The position numbers and the translations under genes are program-made. The notes beneath the pieces are model-generated. The model made no database searches. It saw nothing but the letters and a program-made list of their open reading frames with translations, and was not told where the DNA came from. 21,198 nt of DNA from a virus, in IMG/VR virus record IMGVR_UViG_3300027760_000096, positions 1 to 21,198 of that record. One strand, written 5' to 3'. This document shows, in pieces, positions 1 through 15,038 of the stretch. How positions within the stretch are numbered: the first letter of the stretch is position 1; every line of letters begins with the position of its first letter.

Positions 1-237
1 GATATCCAATTTAAATCTTCTGCTGAATTATATGACGCTGGCTACGCAGTAATGACTTACAGCATCGCAAACAACATAATGCAGTGGCGCTTTAAAGACA
101 AGTCTTTTGTAACGCCCAACGTTACCGACACAAAATATGTTGATGTGAACGGCAGTCAGATAGCCGTGTACCCAGTAAGCGAACTGGTCGTTACCCAACA
201 TTCCGCTCAAAGTGAGGGCAGTCCACCAAAGACTTAA
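1..237 (+). CDS. Possible 3' fragment of a plus-strand gene
   Basis: A plus-strand frame is open from base 1 to a TAA at 235-237 (78 codons, 5' end outside the window). The translation looks protein-like rather than random: KSSAELYDAGYAVMTYSIAN, IMQWRFKDKSFV, then KYVDVNGSQIAVYPVSELVV. I do not recognise a family. If real, it runs opposite to every other gene and converges on the HNH gene, overlapping it by 47 nt, which would mark the end of the late operon. A minus-strand frame of similar length covers the same bases but has a Cys/Trp/Val-heavy composition and looks like a shadow. Apart from this frame and two small inverted repeats (94-125) I see nothing in bases 1-190. Confidence 0.42.
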   Translation, partial: DIQFKSSAELYDAGYAVMTYSIANNIMQWRFKDKSFVTPNVTDTKYVDVNGSQIAVYPVSELVVTQHSAQSEGSPPKT

Positions 238-733
238 AGAAATATTGCACAGATCCATATTGCACATTTAAAGCCCGTGCAATTGCCGATGTAGAAGCGC
301 CAATTTCTTTCATTTTAATTGCCATACCTTTTTTTTCATCGGTCATCTTATGCCGATTTGCATTTCTGACGTTGATTGCATGGCTTACATATCGAATATT
401 TTCTGCGCTGTTGTTGGTTTTGTTGCGATCAATGTGATCAACAATTAAGCCTTTTGGAACAGGCCCCAAAAATGTCAAAGCCATCAGCCTATGCACAAGC
501 AAAGTTGTGTGTTTGCCCTCAACCATGGTGTTAAACCTAAGATACCCGTCTTTGTCTTTGCGGGTCTTAATTTCTTGACCTTTAATTTTGCAAGAATATG
601 GCGATCTTCCTCTAGAAAAGCTGTGCTTTACACGATCTTTTGTAAAGACCTTGCCGCAACGCGTAATAAAAAGATGATCGTACATAGTTTGAATTTTTTC
701 ATGGTGTAACTCTTGCAAATTCTGGTTTTCCAT
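191..733 (-). CDS. HNH endonuclease with C-terminal helix-turn-helix
   Basis: Free-standing homing-type endonuclease. 180 residues from the ATG at 733, which has AGAGG 5 nt upstream. An internal Met at 685 lacks such a site. The HNH core is LVHRLMALTFLGPVPKGLIV (~79-98), then DHIDRNKTNN (99-108) and ENIRYVSHAINVRN (111-124), giving H81, H100, N108/N112 and N121 as key residues. Upstream, KVFTKDR and GYLRF resemble the DNA-contact strands of this group. Residues ~137-167 (MAIKMKEIGASTSAIARALN, then VQYGSVQYFF) read as a helix-turn-helix that would set site specificity. It overlaps the endolysin end by 35 nt and is the last minus-strand gene, so it rides the lysis transcript. An alternative is an intron-less HNH with a packaging role, but it is far from terminase here. 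Confidence 0.85.
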   Translation of the reverse strand: MENQNLQELHHEKIQTMYDHLFITRCGKVFTKDRVKHSFSRGRSPYSCKIKGQEIKTRKDKDGYLRFNTMVEGKHTTLLVHRLMALTFLGPVPKGLIVDHIDRNKTNNSAENIRYVSHAINVRNANRHKMTDEKKGMAIKMKEIGASTSAIARALNVQYGSVQYFFKSLVDCPHFERNVG

Positions 734-1070
734 CTAAGCCTCTAGAGAAATGTGGTGTGTCCACCAATTTTACTCCATTGCCACCCCATGAATTAACTTT
801 ATTCAAAGACTCCCAATACGCACCCAGAGGGGCAAGCATTTCCTTGTTCCAGATTATCTGCCCGTCTTTGAAAAAGTTCAAGTCGATGGCGCATCGTTTT
901 AGGTGGATTGAATTTAAGGTCTTTGAGCGCCCCGTTTTGACGTAGATAGCCTGCTGCTCAACGGTACGTGCCAACTCGCCTCCAGTGACCATCCAGCCCT
1001 GTTCTGAGGCATATTGAATCAGCTTGCAAGCATCCAGCAGGAATGCGGCTTGTTCTTGAGAGAGGCTCAT
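699..1070 (-). CDS. Endolysin, M15-type L-alanyl-D-glutamate / DD-peptidase
   Basis: Cell-wall peptidase that cuts peptide bridges at the end of infection. 123 residues, a minimal single-domain enzyme with no signal peptide and no wall-binding domain, so it needs the holin to reach the wall. The M15 zinc site is visible: S54-x-H56 and D63 in the SIHLKRCAIDLNFF segment, and D104-x-x-H107 in DTPHFS, the same spacing logic as in the T5 endolysin (zinc His, Asp, His plus catalytic Asp). GGELARTVEQQAIYVKTGRS (~30-49) matches the substrate-side loop of the family. GAGG ~8 nt upstream of the start. The ATGA overlap with the holin couples their translation. Its last 35 nt are also the start of the HNH gene. 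Confidence 0.88.
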   Translation of the reverse strand: MSLSQEQAAFLLDACKLIQYASEQGWMVTGGELARTVEQQAIYVKTGRSKTLNSIHLKRCAIDLNFFKDGQIIWNKEMLAPLGAYWESLNKVNSWGGNGVKLVDTPHFSRGLDGKPEFARVTP

Positions 1071-1579
1071 TTTTTAGTCCTCATTTCCATGACTTTTTCA
1101 ACGGTGCGCCCACCAAAGTAAGCGGTCATCACCAGCATCCCCCACTGCCCTAGCAAGTTGACGTAAGTCTCTTGCACCTGTATACCCGCCGCGCTTAGGC
1201 CAGCAAAAATCAAATACGCCGTCAAGATATACAGCAGGGTTCCGGGGCGAATGTTTTTAGACAGCCATGAGTCGGAGGTCATATCCGCTTTCCAGCGGTC
1301 AGTGACATTGTTGTCTTGGCTGGCTTGCGCGGCCAGCAGTGCCTTGAGTTCTTCTTGCTCAAGACGGGCTTTTTCAATGCCCAGCTCCAGCAGGCGTTCC
1401 TCATGGTCAAACTGAAGTTGGCGCAGCTTGGCAATTTCTTCCGAGTTTGGGTTATCGGAGATTTTTACGCCGATGGCGTTTTCGACAACTTCTTTGCCCT
1501 TGGCTTGGATTGCGGACGACAGAAGACCTAGACCGCTTTCAGCCAGCGTACCAAGCAATGATGCAATGATTGGAATCAT
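1067..1579 (-). CDS. Holin of the three-TM, gene-transfer-agent type
   Basis: Inner-membrane pore former that times lysis. 170 residues. An N-terminal hydrophobic segment (MIPIIASLLGTLAESGLGLL) is followed by a charged coiled coil (~45-85, EEIAKLRQLQFDHEERLLEL). Then comes the family-like linker RWKADMTSDSWLSKNIRPG (~94-112) and two more hydrophobic segments (TLLYILTAYLIFAGLSAAGI and GQWGMLVMTAYFGG), with a basic tail (RTVEKVMEMRTKK). This matches the 3TM holin family described from gene transfer agents. GAAAGG 7 nt upstream of the ATG sets the start. The stop overlaps the endolysin ATG (ATGA). Confidence 0.82.
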   Translation of the reverse strand: MIPIIASLLGTLAESGLGLLSSAIQAKGKEVVENAIGVKISDNPNSEEIAKLRQLQFDHEERLLELGIEKARLEQEELKALLAAQASQDNNVTDRWKADMTSDSWLSKNIRPGTLLYILTAYLIFAGLSAAGIQVQETYVNLLGQWGMLVMTAYFGGRTVEKVMEMRTKK

Positions 1580-1581
1580 GG

Positions 1582-2037
1582 TCAGCCTTTCAATTCAAAA
1601 CTCAGATTTGCATGACGGGGATACTGCACAACGCGCTCTCCTTCAGGGCATTTGTACTTGATGGTTGCCAACAAGGTTGCTTTGCCGCTGGCAATCTTTT
1701 CTTTCCTCACCATCGTGAGTTCGTAGGTGAACGTGTCAATCTCTGGCCCTGCTGGGCCGCTAAACTTGCTTGCGGTGGTGGTTGCCTCATGCACCATGCC
1801 AGCAGCATCACGAATGCTTGGCGTAAAACTTTCAACAGAACAATCATTCCGTTTCTTAATTCTTGCAACCGTGACAGTGATGGGTTTCCCAGCCTCTGCC
1901 ACAATTTTGAAATTCTCTGGCGACCATTCAAGAATTGCTTTGTCAAACCAACCAAACTTGTCGGCAAGCGTGTAACTGCCACCCAGTGCGGCAACACTAG
2001 CGGCAACCGCTCCGATGGCTTTGGTAAGGTCAATCAT
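1582..2037 (-). CDS. Membrane-anchored unknown protein in the lysis cassette (151 aa)
   Basis: I start it at the ATG at 2037 (MIDLTKAIGAVAASVAALGG), one base after the previous TGA; a start 22 codons upstream would overlap the preceding gene and is less likely. 151 residues. The first ~25 hold a hydrophobic stretch (AIGAVAASVAALGGSYTLA) that could be a signal anchor, followed by a soluble beta-rich domain (ENFKIVAEAGKPITVTVARI, DTFTYELTMVRKEK, GKATLLATIKYKCPEGERVV). Two Cys residues are present. N-terminal anchor plus periplasmic domain is the topology of an inner-membrane spanin, but there is no coiled coil or lipobox partner, so the spanin idea is only a guess. Followed after 2 nt by the holin. 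Confidence 0.68.
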   Translation of the reverse strand: MIDLTKAIGAVAASVAALGGSYTLADKFGWFDKAILEWSPENFKIVAEAGKPITVTVARIKKRNDCSVESFTPSIRDAAGMVHEATTTASKFSGPAGPEIDTFTYELTMVRKEKIASGKATLLATIKYKCPEGERVVQYPRHANLSFELKG

Positions 2038-2038
2038 G

Positions 2039-2254
2039 TCATAGCCCAAAAAATTTCTTGATGACCTCCGCAGCGACACCCGGCCCAAGCAACACAGCGG
2101 CAATCACGGCGTACAACAAATACTCAATCTTGGTCATGCGCTTAGAACCATCACTAAAACTTGCTTGAATGCTTTCGTAACGGCTAGCGCAGATTGCTTC
2201 ATGGACGCTCAATCGCTTGTCGTTTTCGGCCACGACTTCTTTGATATCTTCCAT
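2039..2254 (-). CDS. XhlA-like membrane protein, possible holin partner (71 aa)
   Basis: 71 residues: an N-terminal amphipathic helix (EDIKEVVAENDKRLSVHEAI) and one C-terminal membrane segment (IEYLLYAVIAAVLLGPGVAA), then a short KKFFGL tail. This arrangement, a cytoplasmic coiled coil plus a single C-terminal transmembrane helix, matches haemolysin XhlA-type lysis proteins that assist holins. It begins one base after the collar gene stop and opens the lysis cassette. No strong ribosome site, so translation is probably coupled. Whether it is a holin, an antiholin or an accessory protein cannot be decided from sequence. Confidence 0.72.
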   Translation of the reverse strand: MEDIKEVVAENDKRLSVHEAICASRYESIQASFSDGSKRMTKIEYLLYAVIAAVLLGPGVAAEVIKKFFGL

Positions 2255-2255
2255 A

Positions 2256-2969
2256 TTAGCTTTTCATAATATACGCAAGCGCGTAGTAAGGTGGCAGGTT
2301 TGCGTTTGTGCCGCTAGTGCCAGCGGAAACTATGCTAATTCCAGTAACAGCCGAGTTTGTGGCGGCAATTGATGAACCCCGAACCGAAGACGCATTTAAA
2401 TTGTAAGTATTGGGGGGGGCATCACTTATAGCGTAGATACCGTGAGCGTGTCCGGGGTCTGTAACGCTGTGCGTGTGCGAAACTACAATTGCATCCGCAG
2501 ATCCGCCTGTTGCATTAACCGCATAAGTTGATCCAGCGCCAACAATAAATTTGTTCCGCAAGTCAGGCGTACCGTTTGAGCCATCACACAAATACCATCC
2601 GGTTGGGACGCTTCCAATTGACCCATACCAAAGCGTAATGACCCCTAGTGGAATGGTAGTGCCAACCGCAGTTTGAACGCCCACAATGCCATAAATATTG
2701 TCGTAAGTGCCAATGGTGCTGCCTGCTGAATTTTTCAACACAAACTTATAATTAACGCCATAAGTTAGCCAAACTTCATTAGCCAAACGCCCAGATGCAT
2801 CCAACACAATTGGATTGGCATTAGCAACAGTGCCGTTGATGTCTGTGTACGTTGCCAGCGGGGTGGTTGATCCAGCTTGGTAGGTATACAAAAGCCCACC
2901 GTTCAAAGGCACTCCGGTGTTGTCAAAGAATTGCTGGGCGTTGCCAATTGGCGAAAGATTTACTGCCAT
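2256..2969 (-). CDS. Tail collar protein with tailspike-type head-binding N-terminus
   Basis: 237 residues in two domains. Residues 1-96 (SPIGNAQQFFDNTGVPLNGG, LLYTYQAGSTTPLATYTD, NPIVLDASGRLANEVWL, YKFVLKNSAGSTIGTYDNI) follow the pattern of the P22 tailspike head-binding domain, which plugs a receptor-binding protein onto the virion. Residues ~105-237 are a phage tail-collar domain: IPLGVITLWYGSIGSVPTGW, LCDGSNGTPDLRNKFIVGAG and NLPPYYALAYIMK at the end. H-x-H pairs (H165/H167 and H174/H176, SHTHSVTDPGHAHG) resemble the His pairs that bind metal in the T4 gp37 fibre tip. It is the last virion gene before lysis, as tailspike gp9 is in P22, so it may be a short appendage. TAGGAAGCATCATG sets the start. 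Confidence 0.85.
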   Translation of the reverse strand: MAVNLSPIGNAQQFFDNTGVPLNGGLLYTYQAGSTTPLATYTDINGTVANANPIVLDASGRLANEVWLTYGVNYKFVLKNSAGSTIGTYDNIYGIVGVQTAVGTTIPLGVITLWYGSIGSVPTGWYLCDGSNGTPDLRNKFIVGAGSTYAVNATGGSADAIVVSHTHSVTDPGHAHGIYAISDAPPNTYNLNASSVRGSSIAATNSAVTGISIVSAGTSGTNANLPPYYALAYIMKS

Positions 2970-2977
2970 GATGCTTC

Positions 2978-5464
2978 CTATTTGTTCAAATCATTGATTT
3001 GATTTTTGCCAGATTGTTTTGTGCCTGCGCCAAGTTCTAAGGCTTTTCTTGTTTCTGCTTGTGCTGCCCGTCTTGCTCGCATTTCCATAACGGTTGTGCC
3101 TAATTGCAGACCCGGCACTAAAAGATTTCCGCCTTTTTCAGCGCCAACTGCAATAGCTTGTTTTCCTTTTTCAGCCAAACTACCTACTAAGGTATTGCTG
3201 TTATTAACAAAACTACCGCGAGGTTGAAATTGAGTATAGCCAGCAACATTACCCAGTGTTCGCAACTGTGTCGCAGAGGTTGGGTTAAAGATTTCTTGCG
3301 TGTTTTTTACGGCATCCAATTGTTTTAGAGCTTTGTTAAAACCAGCTTGTGAAAAGTTTGCTTGCTCGCCATAAATGCCAGCTTTGTCTGCTAACCAGTT
3401 AATTGTTCCAGCAGCCATATGTTGCCTAGCTGGAGAATCTTGACCCAAATGATTGACCATTGTTTGAACATTCTTGTTCACACCATTGATGACAAACTTT
3501 TGAATGAAGTTGTCAGCAGGCACAAGATCAGTGACCGCAGCGTTATAAGCTGGGTCTTTTTTAAGCATATCAAATCGTTCTTTTGCCAATGATCTAGCGT
3601 TGTCTGCCAAACCTTTAAGGTCACTTGCTACCCCTTTTTGCAGTGGCAATTCTTCGGCAGCTTGGCGTACCAAACCCAAAGCTGTTTTGGCGTTCCCATC
3701 TGCTGATTTTTGGGCTTTTCTAATTTCTGCCGCAAGATTAGTTCGTAATGCTTCATACTGTTCAAAAGTCATTTGTTCGCCATTTTTAAAGCGTTCTAAT
3801 TGATTTTTAATTGATGATGGCAAGAATTCAGTCTTTAACTTTTTGGCAAGCAAGGCATCAGCTTTTGCCGCAATTGCCTGACCGTCAACAGGAAATTGAC
3901 CGCCGTTTGCATCTTCCAATTTTTTATATGCTGCGCTAATTGATGTGTTTTTAACGTTATCCATTTCTTTATACGCATCAATAATTCCTTGGCTATTTTC
4001 TATAGTTTTTGTACCAAAAACATCCGGTGCAGCTTGATTGCGTATTTCTTGGACATTGTCAATCAAGTCTTTGTTTTGTTGATTAAAACGTTCAGCAAGT
4101 TGCGTGTCTCTACCGCGCCTGTTTTGTTCTTGTGAAAGTTTGACAAGATCACCAGTTGCTTGTCCCTCAGTTAACCGCACTGGAATTGGCAGCGTGTCGG
4201 CCTCAATGTGGCGCTGAAATGTGGGCACATTGATTTTATTTGGCGGTATACTTTTTAACGCTTGTTGAAGTTCAGGAGTAGCCACAGACAAAGCCTGTTG
4301 AACCATTGTTGCGTTAGGTACAGCAGCCGCGCCAACACTTTGCATATTACTTGGTGTTTGTGCGCCTGCGAGGGGCTGTTTTTCATAGGTAATTGCAGGC
4401 AATTTAGCTTTTATGTCTTGTGCTGCTTGACTAACCGCTGTACCAGCTTTAACTGGAATTGGGGCAGTTTGTTGAATGACTTTAGGAACAGCAGTAGAAC
4501 CAATGACAACCATGTTTCTAATGTCTTGAGGCGGTATGCCTGTTTTTTCCGATATTTGTTCTGGAGTCATTCCTAAGACGTTAAACATCTTGTTGACTTG
4601 TTGAGCAATTGGTTCGGTTATGCCGCCTAATGGCTTTTGATAGGCTTCGCTGCCAGTGATGCCAATTGCTTTGCCTAACGGCTTGTCAATTGATGCAGCT
4701 GCGGCTTGTCCTATTTCTTCGGCCCTTTGTGGCGTGTTTGCGGTTCTAGCCAAAGCCTGAACACCAGCGCCATACACAGCAGGTACGATTCCATAAACGG
4801 TATCAATAGCTCCAGCAGTACGTTCGGCTAAATCTTTTTTTACTTCTTGATATTTATTAAATGTCTGAGCTGCTATGTTGGCAATTTTGGGCGGCACAGA
4901 TTGACCAGTAATTACTGGGGCTGGCTGCGCTGCGGTTTGATCTGGTTGGGCCGAAGGTTGAACTTGCGGTTTAGCAGGTGCAGCCGAGGTTACAGGGTTG
5001 CCAGATAAAAACGCTTCTAATGGATCAGAAGAAGTCTGTAGAGGCGCGGCTGGTGCAATTGGTGCGGTTGACGTTGATGGCGCTGCGGCTTGACCTTGCT
5101 TGACATTGTTGACATAGCCTGATGGGTCTTTGGTTATAAAACCGCCATATTGCGCCAGCGCTTTATCCACATTGCCTTTGTTGCGGTCAACCAATTGACT
5201 GAGGTAAATCTTTGCCGCTTGACGAGCTTGTTCTTCATTGAATGGGTTGAACTCAATACCCTGCTTATGCAGCATCTGCACGGTTTCAGGCATGAATTGA
5301 TATGGCCCCATAGCCTTGGTATCTTTGTTCAATGCAAATTTGTCTTTGCCACTTTCTACACGGCGCAAACTGTCTAGCAATTGATCAGTAATCACTGACG
5401 CACTTTTTGGTTGTGGAGGAGGTGCAACCGCACCATTGCCAAGGAATTGTTCTAAAGCATCCAT
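2978..5464 (-). CDS. Large ejection protein with N-terminal lytic transglycosylase domain
   Basis: 828 residues, the largest gene and in the P22 gp16 position. Residues ~28-118 form an SLT (lysozyme-like) domain. RRVESGKDKF carries the catalytic Glu (E37), followed by AMGPYQFMPET (~51-61), the central helix with EEQARQAAKIYLSQL and a closing ALAQYGGF. Such domains, as in T7 gp16, open the peptidoglycan during DNA entry. The rest is non-enzymatic: a Pro/Ala/Gln-rich linker, a stretch of possible membrane-active segments (TVYGIVPAVYGAGVQALA, ~220-240) and a long helical C-terminal half ending in basic residues. The opening DALEQFLGN recurs as DPLEAFLSGN near residue 147, after the domain. GAGGATTTCTAAATG sets the start, directly abutting the previous gene. 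Confidence 0.85.
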   Translation of the reverse strand: MDALEQFLGNGAVAPPPQPKSASVITDQLLDSLRRVESGKDKFALNKDTKAMGPYQFMPETVQMLHKQGIEFNPFNEEQARQAAKIYLSQLVDRNKGNVDKALAQYGGFITKDPSGYVNNVKQGQAAAPSTSTAPIAPAAPLQTSSDPLEAFLSGNPVTSAAPAKPQVQPSAQPDQTAAQPAPVITGQSVPPKIANIAAQTFNKYQEVKKDLAERTAGAIDTVYGIVPAVYGAGVQALARTANTPQRAEEIGQAAAASIDKPLGKAIGITGSEAYQKPLGGITEPIAQQVNKMFNVLGMTPEQISEKTGIPPQDIRNMVVIGSTAVPKVIQQTAPIPVKAGTAVSQAAQDIKAKLPAITYEKQPLAGAQTPSNMQSVGAAAVPNATMVQQALSVATPELQQALKSIPPNKINVPTFQRHIEADTLPIPVRLTEGQATGDLVKLSQEQNRRGRDTQLAERFNQQNKDLIDNVQEIRNQAAPDVFGTKTIENSQGIIDAYKEMDNVKNTSISAAYKKLEDANGGQFPVDGQAIAAKADALLAKKLKTEFLPSSIKNQLERFKNGEQMTFEQYEALRTNLAAEIRKAQKSADGNAKTALGLVRQAAEELPLQKGVASDLKGLADNARSLAKERFDMLKKDPAYNAAVTDLVPADNFIQKFVINGVNKNVQTMVNHLGQDSPARQHMAAGTINWLADKAGIYGEQANFSQAGFNKALKQLDAVKNTQEIFNPTSATQLRTLGNVAGYTQFQPRGSFVNNSNTLVGSLAEKGKQAIAVGAEKGGNLLVPGLQLGTTVMEMRARRAAQAETRKALELGAGTKQSGKNQINDLNK

Positions 5465-8267: not shown

Positions 8268-8494
8268 TGGTTGTAGTAGGGAACTTTAAAAGCTACCCCA
8301 TTGACCGTGACATTTATAAACCCGACAGGATTTGCTGGCAAAGTTGCCGCGCCAGCAGTTGCAGTTGTTGCGCTACTAAAGTTCAACAAATTAATGAAGA
8401 ACTGCTGCCAAGCTCTTGTTGGGCGTTTTGTCACGCCATCCAAAAATTCGGATTGTGGATATGGTTGGGATTGTGGATTGGGTAGCAATGCCAT
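8264..8494 (-). CDS. Small structural-type protein following gp10 (76 aa)
   Basis: 76 residues from the ATG at 8494, which has AAGGGGA ~6 nt upstream and overlaps the gp10-like stop by one base (TGATG); an ATG 16 codons earlier lies wholly inside the gp10-like gene and is rejected. The protein has a Pro/Gln-rich start ([20 protein letters not shown]), a TKRPTRAWQQFFINLLNF helix, an Ala/Thr linker and a C-terminal strand pair (VGFINVTVNGVAFKVPYYNQ). That C-terminal pattern recurs in small unknown proteins of many phages. It overlaps the next gene by ATGA. It sits where P22 encodes the gp26 needle but is far too short and has no coiled coil, so function is unassigned. Confidence 0.75.
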   Translation of the reverse strand: MALLPNPQSQPYPQSEFLDGVTKRPTRAWQQFFINLLNFSSATTATAGAATLPANPVGFINVTVNGVAFKVPYYNQ

Positions 8495-10356
8495 CAATTT
8501 TCCCCTTGGGTTGCTTTGAGGTTGGCAGAGACAATCACGCACTTGACCGGATCAGAAACAGACACTTCAAAAATCCGATCCCTTGCCGTACCCAGCCGCC
8601 GCCAAATTGCACGGTTTGTGTATTTCCCCATGCGCCCGATAGAAGTCCAGTGTTCATTTGACCAAGTTGAACCGCCATCATTTGACCACCGCAACATGGC
8701 TTGCGGGTCGTCCCCCGTGCCTGTTGACAAGCCTACGCCGGGTTGAAACTGTATCTGTAACTCATCAAAATATTCACGCTGAAAATCCGCAACCAAGTGA
8801 GGGGCGCGGCGTAACCGCCTGACATTTTGCCCATCATCTGTGTAAATGGTTTTGTCTAAGTGGTAAATTTTGCCGTTGGAATAGTCGCCAACCAAAACAT
8901 ATCCTTGAAAAACCGCCGCACAATTTCCACGGCATCTTTCGTATTGGCCTAGATTGTTTGTATACAACCACTTATGCCACATTTGTGATGTAACGTCATA
9001 GCACCAAGTTAGCTGGATTGAGGGAAAGCTAATTACATAAACCTCATGCCCCTCTAATTGGTAAGTCCACGCCACTGCGTCAGTAATAGTTTGCCCTGTT
9101 AAGCTATTTTCCACCGCATGGTTTGAAATTCTTTGTGGGACATAGCCATTCATTGCAACAATCTGCGCTGTTCCACGGTTGTTTTTTGACAAATAAGCAA
9201 ATGAATTACCAAGTCTTGCCACGCTAAATGCTGTGACAATGCCGTGCTGGGTAGACGTACCGGGAATGCGTTGAAATGGAAATGGGTTTGTTCCCTGATC
9301 TACCCACACTTCGCTTGAAGTTTCCCCTAGCAAATAAATTTCACGGTGATCAACAATCAAAGTCACCAAATTATCAGGAGCGCCATCTTTGCTTGAGAAA
9401 CTTAATACTGGCGAAATAGGCGACAAAACCGCAGAAGCGCCAAATTGCTGAGTGCCGGGGCGGTTGTAGACAAAGTAGTTGTCCACAATATCAACATTTG
9501 TGCCGCCTTGGAAAGCGCCATCAGTGCTTGGCAAAACTGACCAATTCAATCCATACATTGTGGTTGAACTAATTGTTTGGGAAAAGTTAACCGTGTACGT
9601 TCCCGTTCCACCAGTGCCAGTTCCAAGGGATGTAATGATGGTATTTGCTGTAATGCCAGCGCCCTGAATGGTCATGCCAAGTGCTAACGTGCCGCTGCTA
9701 ACTGCTGAAACCGTCAACGTTGTGCCTGCAATTGCGCCTGTAATTATTGCGCCTGCTGTAGCTGAATTCATTTGCTCACTAGCAACGGTTTGAGAAAGAT
9801 TAATTGTGTAAGTGCCAGTCCCGCCTGTTCCAGAACCTAAAGCAGTGATCACGGTTTCTTGAGTAACACCAACGCCAAACAGCACTTGACCCACCACCAA
9901 AGCGCCGTCTGTTATAGCTGATACCGTAAGAGTTGTGCCGCTGGTTGACCCCGTAAAAACCGCGCTAGATGGCGTTGAAATGCGCCATGTATAACGGTAA
10001 GTCCCATCAACAATGTAGACATTAACGCCGTTATCAACTATGCCTACTCGACCAGTGCTGGAATTAAGTTGGCCTACCATTGTTACGATAAAACTGCTTG
10101 TCAGGGCATAGACGTAAGGGCCGCAAACCGCAACCAGAATACTGCCGCCCGACAAGGTGACCATGCCGCGCACTTCCTGCTGGTTTTGGAATAACACCAA
10201 AGATGACAGCCCCGGCGTTGGGTACAGCGCCACCACACCCCGGTCACCGGGTTGTTTCAACGGGTCAATTTCAGGAAACCAATTAATGCACTCTTGGGCA
10301 TCTTGGTAAATGCTTGGCGCTTCGTAGGATGGGCCAACAAAGCCAAAATCTGCCAT
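8494..10356 (-). CDS. P22 gp10-like packaged-DNA stabilisation / tail accessory protein
   Basis: Second tail accessory factor, which closes the portal channel beneath gp4 in P22. 620 residues. Clear family signatures: [53 protein letters not shown], then [18 protein letters not shown] (~288-305), [20 protein letters not shown] and [13 protein letters not shown]. Between TWRI and the [13 protein letters not shown] block sit two copies of a beta-rich module (~134-198 and ~205-267). Without them the length is near 485, close to the 472 I recall for P22 gp10, so the modules explain the excess. The C-terminal ~100 residues ([20 protein letters not shown], then [10 protein letters not shown]) resemble other phage gp10-like proteins. 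Overlaps both neighbours by one base (TAATG before, TGATG after). Confidence 0.9.
9556..9744 (-). repeat. Beta module copy 2 in the gp10-like gene
   Basis: Encodes residues ~205-267: [20 protein letters not shown], a [14 protein letters not shown] core, [17 protein letters not shown] and SSTTM. Its core (GMTI-x-G-x-GITA) is closer to the gp4-like copy than to copy 1. Confidence 0.8.
9763..9957 (-). repeat. Beta module copy 1 in the gp10-like gene
   Basis: Encodes residues ~134-198. Shares with copy 2 the phrases GTTLTVSA, a G-x-G-[VI]T turn, the nine-residue phrase GTGGTGTYT and SQT; start-to-start distance is 71 codons. The N-terminal strand begins FTGSTSG, like FTGSISG in the gp4-like copy. 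Confidence 0.8.
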
Positions 10357-11330
10357 TATCGGAATCCCCCATCCATGATAAAGCCAGCGTCTTTTGCTCG
10401 ACCAACCATCAGCGCATCAGGATACCGCGCCACTTGTGCGGGTTTCATGTTGGTTCGCTTAATGATGGCCTTTGCGTTTCCCGCAAATGAATTGATCATT
10501 GTGATTTGAGTCGTTGAAGCCTTGCCGTACATTGGCATCATGCGTTCAGCCAAACACCACCGCAGCGCCATGTTGTAGCCTTGCGGCAGCGTGATCGTGT
10601 CGTACAGCGTATTAAACGTGCGAAACATAGTGTTTGCAAACAAGTGCAATTCACCAGATGAGGGGTTAGGAAATACATACAGCGTTCCAAGTGTCTCGCT
10701 TGGCTGGTAATAAACCATTTTTGCCCACGGGCCGTTAAGCTGCTTGATGCCCAAAGATTCATATTCTTCTAGGCTCAAAATTGCTACTGGGTAGTCAAGA
10801 TAGCCGCCAGCCACACTTGAACCGCCTTGCTGTGTCGCCACGCGAACAAAGGCAGATTCAATTGTCAAAGGACGCTCGTAGTAAGCTGTAATCGTTGTGC
10901 TTGCAGCCGTTTGAGATTGGCTAACAGTGTATGTGCCGCCCTCATTTACGTTACCGCCAGCGCCAGTGCCGAACCCCACAATTGTTGTGCCTGCGGTGAT
11001 ACCCGTGCCGCTAATGGTCATGCCCATTGTGATTGCGCCAGAAATTACACCATTAACGGGAACGGTCAGGATTGTGCCTGAAATTGAACCCGTGAAAGAC
11101 GCACCAACCGAACCAGATGGGCCAAGCGTGTATTGAACTGTGTTTTGGACGGTCTGAAAAATGATTTCGGTTTTGTAAAAAACCATCATGTTTTCGTTTG
11201 ACCACTGGGCGCACATGTCATTGAGCATGTCGAACGCATCTTGCGCCGCATCTGCTGATGGAACTTCCCCGGCCTCTAATGCGCCAATATCTTTAAGCGC
11301 CCTGCTAACAATGTCGTATGGTGTTGTCAT
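10356..11330 (-). CDS. P22 gp4-like tail accessory factor with an inserted beta module
   Basis: Head-to-tail adaptor that seals the portal after packaging; P22 gp4 binds the portal and recruits gp10. 324 residues, much longer than the 166 I recall for P22 gp4. The N-terminal helical part ([36 protein letters not shown]) and the TVQYTLGP strand fit the family. Where the chain should continue into [11 protein letters not shown] there is an extra Gly/Thr-rich stretch (~78-149) of the same type found twice in the next gene. The family pattern resumes after it ([50 protein letters not shown]). Overlaps the gp10-like gene by one base (TAATG). P22 gp4 also has muramidase activity; whether this one does cannot be told from the sequence. 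Confidence 0.85.
10884..11099 (-). repeat. Beta module copy in the gp4-like gene
   Basis: Encodes residues ~78-149, with [10 protein letters not shown], a [15 protein letters not shown] core, then a GTG-rich turn and [17 protein letters not shown]. It aligns with the two copies in the gp10-like gene (9556-9744 and 9763-9957), sharing the order GTxLTV, G-x-x-I-x-G-x-G-[IV]T, a GTGxGG turn, GTYT[IV] and SQT. Here the turn is longer (NVNEG). It interrupts an otherwise ordinary gp4-family sequence between YTLGPSG and [10 protein letters not shown]. Confidence 0.75.
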
Positions 11331-12000: not shown

Positions 12001-12840
12001 TTAAAACGTGATTGAACCTGATGAAGTCCATTGGTAGACACGATAGCCGCCAGCTACGGTGATTGTTGGTGAACCTGTGGTTGATGTTGCGGCAGCGTAT
12101 GTGTCTGCATAGCGAATTATCACAACCCCAGAACCGCCAGCGCCACCGGCTGTAAATCCACCGCCACCGCCACCGCCAAGGTTTGCCGTTCCGTTGCCGC
12201 CAGCACCGGATGTTGACGGAGTACCTGCCCCCGCAGGGCTTGTGCCGCTACTACCGCCCCTAAATCCGCTACCAGAACCACCAGCGCCCATCGCATAAGT
12301 TACTGACGTTCCAGAAATTGATGATGCCAAACCTGCGCCGCCATTTCCAGAAGTTGCTATTGCACCACTTGTTCCCGCCGCGCCCGCGCCACCGCCACCG
12401 CCTGCCAAATAAAAAGTTGCGCCCGTTCCAGTGCCACCCGCGTTACCCTGTCCAGCAGGGCTTGCCGCACCGGCTGCGCCTAACCTAGCAGCGCCGCCGC
12501 CAGAACCACCTGCCCCCGCCGCTGTATCGCCATCTCCGCTACCGTAACCACCACCAGCAGAAGTAATGCTGGAAAATACAGATGCGTTTCCTGTTGTCCC
12601 TTCCCAAGGAAAAATTGTTGTCCCGCCTGCTCCACCCGCGCCAACAGTTACTGTATACGGCGTTCCAAAAGTTACTGAAAGACCTGTAGCTGTTCGATAA
12701 CCACCCGCCCCACCGCCACCACCTGACGTATTGTTGTTGCCGCATCCACTACCACCACCGCCAGCAACTACCAAATACTCAACCGCAGTTGGGCCGAGGT
12801 AAGACGGGCCACCTAACAGAAAGTTTTTAGCGGCAAACAT
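12001..12840 (-). CDS. Glycine-rich tail adhesin-like protein
   Basis: 279 residues dominated by glycine runs broken by short strands. It opens with MFAAKNFLLGGPSYLGPTAV, then VEYLVVAGGGGSG, many GGGGAGG-type segments, and ends with GGSGVVIIRYADTY followed by a GGYRVYQWTSSGSITF cap. This is the phage glycine-rich domain pattern. In Salmonella phage S16 gp38-type adhesins, polyglycine-II helices pack into a sandwich at the fibre tip and intervening loops bind the receptor. The protein directly follows the long fibre with a 1-nt overlap, so it may cap that fibre or bind the host itself. The role as fibre-tip adhesin is inference from composition and context. Confidence 0.78.
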   Translation of the reverse strand: MFAAKNFLLGGPSYLGPTAVEYLVVAGGGGSGCGNNNTSGGGGGAGGYRTATGLSVTFGTPYTVTVGAGGAGGTTIFPWEGTTGNASVFSSITSAGGGYGSGDGDTAAGAGGSGGGAARLGAAGAASPAGQGNAGGTGTGATFYLAGGGGGAGAAGTSGAIATSGNGGAGLASSISGTSVTYAMGAGGSGSGFRGGSSGTSPAGAGTPSTSGAGGNGTANLGGGGGGGFTAGGAGGSGVVIIRYADTYAAATSTTGSPTITVAGGYRVYQWTSSGSITF

Positions 12841-15038
12841 TATGGTGTGTACCCTTGGGCAATCGAACCGTACCAGTTTGTGCCGTCAGCAATAAAAGTC
12901 AAGATATCCATCGTGCCAGCCGTTGCGGTAATAGTTGGTGCTCCAGCCGTACCAAACTTAACACTCGTAAATGTCGCCGTGCCGTTACCCGTAGCCGCTG
13001 CTTGTTTGAGCAACAGCACAAAGGACTTGCCAGCCGTAGCCGTTGGCATAGTGAACGTACAAGCCGTAGACGCTGTCAAAGTTGCAGTCTGCACTGTGCC
13101 ATTAGTTAACGACAAAGTGTTTGTCGTTGTGACTGTTCCAATGGCAACCACCGATTCCACATAGTTGGTCACTGTTGGATTGTTGATAACTGGGGCTGTC
13201 AATCCAGTAACAGTTAAATATCCTGTGCTTGGATTAAATGCAAGTTTGGTAGACGATACATTTGCGCCTGTAATTGATCCCGTTGTGGCGCTTGTAAACG
13301 TCAGATAGCGTGTCGCATTTGTAGTGGTGTCATCAGCAATCGTGATGCCACTGGTCAAGGTTGACCAAGTTGGTGCAGATGCGCCGTTAGACGTTAAAAC
13401 CTGACCCGTTGTGCCTGCTGCGGTAAACGCATAAGCAGTACCCGTGCCGTAAGTTATGCCCCCTGCGGTTGGTGTAGCGGTTGAATTAGTGCCGCCGTTT
13501 GCAATTGGCAGCGTCCCAGTAACACCCGTAGTTAAAGGCAGACCAGTAGCATTAGTTAACGTGCCAGAAGATGGCGTTCCCAATGCGCCGCCGTTCACCA
13601 CAAAAGCACCAGCAGAACCAACCGCCACGCCCAATGCAGTTACCACTCCCGTTCCGGTTGTGATTGTTGATGGCGCTACACCAGCCCCGCCGCCGATCAC
13701 TAGAGCGTTGGCAGCTAAAGCGCCAGATGATGCCCAAGTGGTTGCGCTTGAGAAATAAACAATGCCGCCAGATGTTCCCGCAACCGTTAATGCCGGGGTT
13801 GTTGTTGCGGTTGCAACTGAAATTATTCCACCAGTAAATCCTACTGATGTGACCGTACCCGTGTAATCTGTCCCCCATGCTGGCAAACCAGCAGCAACGC
13901 GCAGAACTTGGCCCGTTGTGCCAATACCAAGCATTGCCGTTGTGCCAGCGGCGCTTTGATATGGCAGCGAACCAGCAGCGCCACCAGCTACGTTAGTGGC
14001 AGTTGTTGCCAGCGTAGCGGTTGCCGCATTGCCACTGGTATTTTGGTTAAAGGTAGGCCAAGTGAATGTACCCGTGGAAAAATTACCCGATTGAGGCGTT
14101 CCTAAAATAGGGGTCACCAAAGTTGGGCTTGTGGCAAACACCAATGATCCAGTGCCTGTTTCATCAGTCATCGCCGCCAGCAAATTGGCGCTAGATGGCG
14201 TTGCAAGCCAAGTTGCTACTCCAGTACCTAAACCAGTGATTGACCCAACTGCCGGGGTAACAGTGGTGTTCCCAGCCAATGTTAATTGTCCTTGGGCATT
14301 GACTGTGAATGTGCCTACTTGGGTTGCTGATCCATACGCACCAGCAGTAACAGCAGTGTTTGTAATGCTGAACTGTGTGGCTGTTAATGTCAGGCCAGTG
14401 CCAGCGGTATAGGTAGAAGCAACAGAAAAGTTGTACCAATTGATGGCAGTTGTGCCAAGTGTGCCACCGGGTTGTGCGGAGGAATACCACGCCGAATCAG
14501 CCTGCGATCCTGAAATCACAAACACAATCGCGCCAACATACTCATCCCATGTATCCGCGCCAACACTTCGAGTCCATGCGCCTGATGACACCAAATAGAT
14601 GCCATTTTGCGCTGCCGTAGATTGGTTTTTAACCAAGACCGTATTGCCAGCAATCAAAGTAACCGTGTCAACAGTCAGCAAACCCGACAAACTGGCAATG
14701 TTTACGGTAGATGCGGCGTTAACTGGTTGTTTCCAACTAAGCCCAGCGGCGAAATAATCCACATATTGCTTGTTGACTAGATCAGTTGCGGCGGTTGGTG
14801 TTGCCGCCACTGTGCCTGATGTAAAAGCCGCCGTGGATGGGGTTGTTGCCCCAATTGTGGTGCTGTCAATCGTGCTGTTTGTGATGTGCAAACCAGATTG
14901 GTTTGGATTAATGCTGGCGTAGAACGGCGTTCCTGCTGGCCCAATCAATGAGATTAAGTCAAATGTTGGAGCTGGTTGGAACGTGCCCTGTACAGGAACA
15001 AAATTTGTCGTTGATGTAACGGCGGCTTCGTTGGACAT
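12840..15038 (-). CDS. Tail fibre protein, long and repeat-rich
   Basis: Elongated receptor-binding fibre, 732 residues, almost all Thr, Ala, Gly, Ser and Val with very few charges. After an N-terminal ~80 residues that probably attach to the virion, residues ~82-203 form a domain found in many phage fibres: ATDLVNKQYVDYFAAGL, then TLIAGNTVLVKNQSTAAQNG, a GAWTRSVGADTWDE stretch and LGTTAINWYNF. The rest is beta-repeat fibre shaft with recurring phrases such as GTPQSGNFSTGT / GTPSSGTLTNATG, LPIANGGTNSTATPTAGG and GTTGQVLTSNGASAPTW. The C-terminus (ADGTNWYGSIAQGYTP) is typical of such fibres. No tail-fibre chaperone or cleavage domain is seen. Ribosome site AAAAGGGGGTTGGAATG. The stop codon overlaps the next ATG by one base (TAATG), so the two are probably co-translated. 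Confidence 0.87.
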   Translation of the reverse strand: MSNEAAVTSTTNFVPVQGTFQPAPTFDLISLIGPAGTPFYASINPNQSGLHITNSTIDSTTIGATTPSTAAFTSGTVAATPTAATDLVNKQYVDYFAAGLSWKQPVNAASTVNIASLSGLLTVDTVTLIAGNTVLVKNQSTAAQNGIYLVSSGAWTRSVGADTWDEYVGAIVFVISGSQADSAWYSSAQPGGTLGTTAINWYNFSVASTYTAGTGLTLTATQFSITNTAVTAGAYGSATQVGTFTVNAQGQLTLAGNTTVTPAVGSITGLGTGVATWLATPSSANLLAAMTDETGTGSLVFATSPTLVTPILGTPQSGNFSTGTFTWPTFNQNTSGNAATATLATTATNVAGGAAGSLPYQSAAGTTAMLGIGTTGQVLRVAAGLPAWGTDYTGTVTSVGFTGGIISVATATTTPALTVAGTSGGIVYFSSATTWASSGALAANALVIGGGAGVAPSTITTGTGVVTALGVAVGSAGAFVVNGGALGTPSSGTLTNATGLPLTTGVTGTLPIANGGTNSTATPTAGGITYGTGTAYAFTAAGTTGQVLTSNGASAPTWSTLTSGITIADDTTTNATRYLTFTSATTGSITGANVSSTKLAFNPSTGYLTVTGLTAPVINNPTVTNYVESVVAIGTVTTTNTLSLTNGTVQTATLTASTACTFTMPTATAGKSFVLLLKQAAATGNGTATFTSVKFGTAGAPTITATAGTMDILTFIADGTNWYGSIAQGYTP

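Follow-up and report, generated by a model that had tools for sequence, protein, structure and literature searches.

A 21-kb virus record encoding the head and tail of a P22-like podovirus raises the question of why two adjacent tail proteins contain the same Gly/Thr-rich stretch, and what it does on the virion. The whole stretch of DNA analysed, here called the window, spans 21,198 nucleotides (Table 1). It includes a portal gene (PF16510, E = 1.6e-175) and a coat protein gene (PF11651, E = 1.1e-35), with the genes for the adaptor and nozzle, the two stacked rings of the tail, lying back to back, both on the minus strand. Three of its nearest annotated matches are from Manatee Spring, and judging from its relatives only, this uncultured phage is probably of freshwater origin. 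Elsewhere in the window, residues 77-259 of a 732-aa protein (12840-15038) match the head-decoration family phrog_2647; a glycine-rich protein (12001-12840, Gly_rich_2) comes after it.

Table 1. Positions of the host genes and module copies within the analysed record
Feature	Position	Strand	Basis
Virus record IMGVR_UViG_3300027760_000096 (21 kb)	1 to 21,198		
gp10-like nozzle / head-closure protein, 620 aa, beta-propeller, two modules	8494-10356	-	phrog_578
Second gp10 module, residues 203-269	9550-9750	-	Repeat alignment, shuffle test; model strands 203-270
First gp10 module, residues 132-198	9763-9963	-	Repeat alignment, shuffle test; model strands 131-200
gp4-like head-tail adaptor, 324 aa, one module	10356-11330	-	phrog_12985, E 3e-39; phrog_637 (adaptor Ad3), E 8e-6
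Module in gp4-like adaptor, residues 76-149	10884-11105	-	Repeat alignment, shuffle test

Three homologous copies of one domain

An earlier note on this DNA had described one Gly/Thr-rich module in the gp4-like protein and two in the gp10-like protein. All three repeats were recovered by alignment, with the previously given positions off by at most 6 bases and the listed motifs correct. The copies are ~67-74 residues long and share 27 invariant residues in 74 aligned columns, with pairwise scores of 143, 169 and 209 that lie 13.4, 15.0 and 22.4 SD above the mean of 2000 shuffles. These values establish the three stretches as homologous copies of one domain. Convergence of low-complexity sequence, in which Gly/Thr-rich stretches would look alike by composition alone, has some appeal given the bias of the module, about half of which (49-52%) is Gly, Thr and Ser. 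However, the shuffles preserved composition exactly and rule this reading out, leaving it a negligible probability. None of the other Gly/Thr-rich proteins encoded in the window scores above 67 or is matched by the module HMM, and the module has a single confident predicted fold.

Charged residues (D/E/K/R) account for 1.5-3.7% of the modules, compared with 11-17% of the host parts. The modules have dN/dS values of 0.10-0.20, similar to those of the host cores, and are thus under purifying selection and kept by it. No conserved cluster of polar residues was seen in the modules, so an enzymatic role is not expected.

The second gp10 module was modelled alone, using a profile built on 125 modules of many different hosts (window 9541-9762, 74 residues), giving an AlphaFold2 pLDDT of 95.9. 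The model features two long end strands (5-23 and 54-72) with two short strands between them, and the confident prediction is a small beta-barrel whose terminal strands pair. The top structural neighbours of this four-strand model are other barrels, a list from which Ig folds are absent without thereby being excluded; in Pfam, no module matched an Ig-like family at E values up to 10. Mobile phage Ig-like domains are likewise small beta domains scattered over unrelated virion proteins, but the barrel predicted here would be a different fold.

The closest phage structure in the PDB is the decoration protein of Arthrobacter phage Bridgette (8eci_1; Foldseek TMq 0.69, probability 1.00, 29% identity), at a modest E of 0.066. 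Its VIA Z of 7.6 over 67 residues is tied with those of an archaeal protein and elongation-factor barrels. The other nearest neighbours are barrels of the EF-Tu-domain-II type (elongation factor) and of the F1-ATPase N-terminal type (ATP synthase), some at equal Z. The gp4 family profile picks out 8eci_1 weakly (E = 2.5) and over the module columns only, and the plain module profile does not find it. The capsid cement proteins of Bridgette are dimers around the penton (PMC13033339). Like the decoration protein (8eci chain 1), the module is predicted to be a small virion-surface beta-barrel, and the two have ~30% identity over 67-75 positions at borderline scores, although the former is a stand-alone protein of 124-126 residues on the capsid, whereas the module is spliced into tail rings. 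Common descent of the two is plausible from sequence and model. Matches of the module to FeoA (E = 0.01, weak) and to antibody chains were taken as chance. The E1_FCCH family (PF16190), suspected from Pfam and UBA1 structure matches, was also rejected. One module-bearing phage protein (L318, ORF 204-3347) does contain an E1_FCCH match, elsewhere in the chain, at residues 828-893, with the module at 66-132.

Host proteins and predicted placement of the modules

Residues 1-618 of the gp10-like protein match phrog_578 (Hc3; E = 1.9e-103), over the whole length outside the modules. Its AlphaFold2 model (pLDDT 81.7) aligns with P22 gp10 (8eap_D) at Z 36.6 and rmsd 5.0 over 424 of 471 residues. Without both modules it would be ~482 aa long, close to the 472 aa of P22 gp10, as had been anticipated. 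In the model, blade 1 receives its velcro strand from the part preceding the modules, which also forms blade 2 (62-96) and strands A-C of blade 3 (105-125); strand D of blade 3 (272-274) follows the modules.

Blade 3 is a known site of distal additions in tail nozzles. In T7, the nozzle tip is reached from a blade 3 loop (PMC6702177). Four Ig-like nozzle domains of SU10 enter between blades 2 and 3, form a blunt tip and straighten on DNA release (PMC9509320), and crAss001 carries distal nozzle domains at the blade 3 site of its propeller (PMC10172136). The SU10 gp17 nozzle domains, the IG1 and IG2 domains of the crAss001 gp44 muzzle and the T7 gp12 tip are, like the gp10 modules, beta inserts at or beside blade 3. 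Unlike the module, the SU10 and crAss001 inserts are Ig-like folds and the T7 insert is another barrel. No sequence similarity was detectable between the module and these nozzle domains, and HHalign of T7 gp12 with gp10 gave nothing usable. Because the insertion site matches that of the distal domains in T7, SU10 and crAss001, the gp10 pair should form the tail tip rather than a collar, a placement obtained by counting strands in the gp10 model against the published nozzles. For gp10, strand order thus speaks against the collar decoration suggested earlier. Several relatives, including MW202520, have a second, variable insert of ~40 residues towards the C terminus of gp10 (around residues 540-552 of the window gp10).

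The gp4 proteins of the close relative MW202520 and of PAE2 match SU10_adaptor (PF24175) above the cut-off, with E values of 1.7e-9 and 2.8e-8, respectively; the window adaptor itself has no Pfam match at E 0.1. The P22_Tail-4 family (PF11650) was found neither in this adaptor nor in a six-frame search of the contig. The gp4 family profile matches P22 gp4 at both terminal helices (E = 1e-4), and in the adaptor, P22-like sequence does not extend beyond the first ~45 residues and a stretch at the C terminus. By its sequence relationships, the gp4-like protein is an SU10-type adaptor and not simply a P22 gp4. The adaptors of SU10, T7 and KP32 have a fibre-dock domain, which those of P22 and Sf6 lack (PMC9509320, PMC6702177). 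The module, flanked by YTLGP and RPLTI segments, lies in a beta region that would correspond to the SU10/T7 fibre dock, and a radial position there is plausible by analogy. In nearly all relatives checked, the gp4 module occupies this site. HHalign of T7 gp11 with gp4 gave nothing usable. The modules had been described as interrupting P22-family sequence in both hosts. This holds for gp10, which has the P22 gp10 fold, but not exactly for gp4, where the beta region around the module has no counterpart in P22 gp4.

In MW202674, a gene annotated as an endonuclease lies between the adaptor and gp10 genes. A gap separates the gp4 and gp10 ORFs at 11416-11994 in L081, and gaps of similar size occur in L028, L035 and L045.

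History in this lineage and spread over virion proteins

Comparison with module-free relatives bears directly on the proposal that the modules are shared insertions, and leaves it standing. The gp4 junction is closed in the module-free outgroups Rhodoferax phage P26218, Pseudomonas PAE2 and Vibrio VvAW1, and the gp10 junction is closed in relatives without gp10 modules. MW202674 and MW202520 have a module in gp4 and none in gp10. Among 80 viral contigs retrieved with a module-free gp10, none has a gp10 module, and 77 of 78 gp4 proteins have one or two. All gp10 proteins in 80 contigs retrieved with the window gp10 carry two modules, and 77 of 78 gp4 proteins carry one; copy number in gp10 ranges from 2 to 4 among relatives.

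In a gp10 tree built with the modules removed, all 94 gp4-positive tips fall within one clade of 99 (support 1.0). Of these 99 tips, the 64 that carry gp10 modules group with a support of 0.23 and the 35 that lack them with 0.997. As the gp4 copy is present in relatives whose gp10 lacks modules, it looks the older by sequence, and a later arrival of the gp10 pair looks to be the simplest history. Ancestral gp10 modules followed by loss in the 35-tip sister clade are a possible alternative, since the module-bearing gp10 clade has a support of 0.23. Members of the Xanthomonas phage PBR31 group have a divergent insert at the gp4 site of the module, and it matches the module profile with an HHalign probability of 90% from two sequences and 71% from the full group.

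Modules at the three sites evolve as orthologues, with ~70% identity between genomes at the same site; identity between sites within one genome is 47-57%. Concerted evolution of the gp4 and gp10 modules was rejected, as same-genome identity is barely above between-genome identity. Nor is an origin of the gp10 modules by copying from gp4 favoured, since they resemble modules of unrelated proteins at least as closely as they do the gp4 module.

Neither Pfam nor NCBIfam, both of which were searched, has a model for the module. It lies inside phrog_21413 and phrog_38233 (tail fibre protein), which each window module matches with E values of 1e-8 to 8e-16; these are whole-protein families that share the module part only. 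Among the matches listed, with hosts read as stop-to-stop ORFs, at least 141 host ORFs beyond gp4 and gp10 fall into at least 62 clusters after module masking. The module was confirmed in at least 39 bacterial genome loci. Named hosts include tail sheath, baseplate wedge, minor and major head proteins, head maturation protease, head closure proteins, a major tail protein with an Ig-like domain, and tail fibres. In BFVD, the module is found in an HK97 capsid protein, an Stf side tail fibre and a P22 Gp10, at TM values of about 0.9. Modules in non-homologous hosts share up to 78% nucleotide identity.

The search patterns required the GTYT region, which biases both the diversity and the invariance of the module; full invariance of the GTYT and Gly columns is partly an artefact of these patterns and is not counted as evidence. 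When the tandem modules were compared with annotated phages by tblastn, nothing matched and even module-bearing relatives were missed, probably owing to the low-complexity filter; profile and DNA-pattern searches therefore took its place. The module's signature peptide did not occur in the literature searched.

Sharing of the module by neighbouring genes is a recurrent pattern, since the sheath gene and the adjoining gene (phrog_1876) both carry modules in several phages and prophages (L159, L168, L174, L177, L190, L243 and L297). The hosts of these contractile-tail phages or prophages include Rhizobium and Paraburkholderia. The idea that the module spreads as a mobile protein domain is borne out by the ~60 unrelated host groups listed, most of them virion proteins, the nucleotide identities of up to 78% and the closed junctions. 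Its occurrence in so many unrelated groups identifies the module as a mobile virion domain.

Candidate roles of the module

We consider it probable that one mobile virion domain entered this lineage, in the adaptor first and as the gp10 pair later, and that it serves in passive display and contact. Its long first and last strands, at the barrel's two ends, would let it splice into a beta-hairpin loop and leave the host fold undisturbed. An ancestor may first have gained the module in the adaptor, in a beta region corresponding to the T7/SU10 fibre dock. A tandem pair would then have entered blade 3 of the gp10 propeller, standing in for the nozzle-tip domains found in T7, SU10 and crAss001. 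Passive display and contact is the least certain part of this account. The module could add thickness and support to the outside of the ring proteins, in the cement-like manner of the Bridgette decoration protein, and offer fibres, adjacent subunits or the cell envelope a neutral Thr/Ser/Gly-rich surface to touch weakly. From sequence and model together, it is best read as a displayed, stabilising and contact-making domain.

A purely structural cement, in which the sole task of the modules is to reinforce the interfaces of ring and nozzle against internal pressure and the cell is never touched, would accord with a capsid decoration protein as the best phage match and with purifying selection similar to that of the core. 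We nevertheless regard it as unlikely, as close relatives manage without gp10 modules and a gp10 copy number of 2 to 4 is odd for a part that strictly builds interfaces. Phage Ig-like domains and carbohydrate-binding modules have been proposed to bind polysaccharides, and the modules could mainly do the same with polysaccharides of the host surface or environment, concentrating the virion at its host, in line with the glycan binding suggested in the earlier note. Their presence in virion proteins of all tail types, their neutral Ser/Thr/Gly-rich composition and a gp10 site that by analogy would be the cell-facing tip are consistent with such adhesion, and 936-group lactococcal phages have carbohydrate-binding modules in their virion proteins (PMC6669499). 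However, the module matches no carbohydrate-binding family in Pfam or NCBIfam, its only conserved aromatic or acidic candidate is a single Tyr that belongs to the search pattern, and no lectin or CBM fold appears near the top of the PDB match lists, which makes a mainly adhesive role somewhat less likely still. Selfish or neutral spread, with the module persisting through harmless insertion in hairpin loops at no benefit to the phage, would account for the wide scatter over unrelated hosts and the variable copy number. It is made very unlikely by dN/dS values like those of the core, by retention of the same three sites across the window-like clade and by orthologous copies that show no sign of decay or gene conversion.

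The favoured reading, a mobile domain for display and contact, admits a broader and more tentative extension. The module may represent an undescribed superfamily of mobile virion domains with a non-Ig fold, derived from or ancestral to free-standing capsid decoration proteins, which moves among unrelated viruses, possibly giant viruses too, in their heads, tails and fibres, and which in this podovirus lineage serves as the nozzle tip of a P22-type tail. The module looks like a mobile building block in wide use on virus surfaces, and in environmental phages its host range covers capsid, sheath, baseplate, adaptor, nozzle and fibre proteins. This suggests that one mobile barrel can be used for nozzle tips, decoration proteins and tail insertions alike, as Ig-like domains are. 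The module thus provides a sequence handle on a surface domain absent from Pfam and NCBIfam, which would help to annotate many unnamed virion proteins. Moreover, relatives of the window form an ordered series (no module, gp4 only, gp4 and gp10), making domain gain directly testable. In the giant virus Indivirus ILV1, the module fold occurs in two collagen-repeat proteins (A0A1V0SCQ2 and A0A1V0SDM6) at 36-54% identity, which suggests that the module has spread beyond phages.
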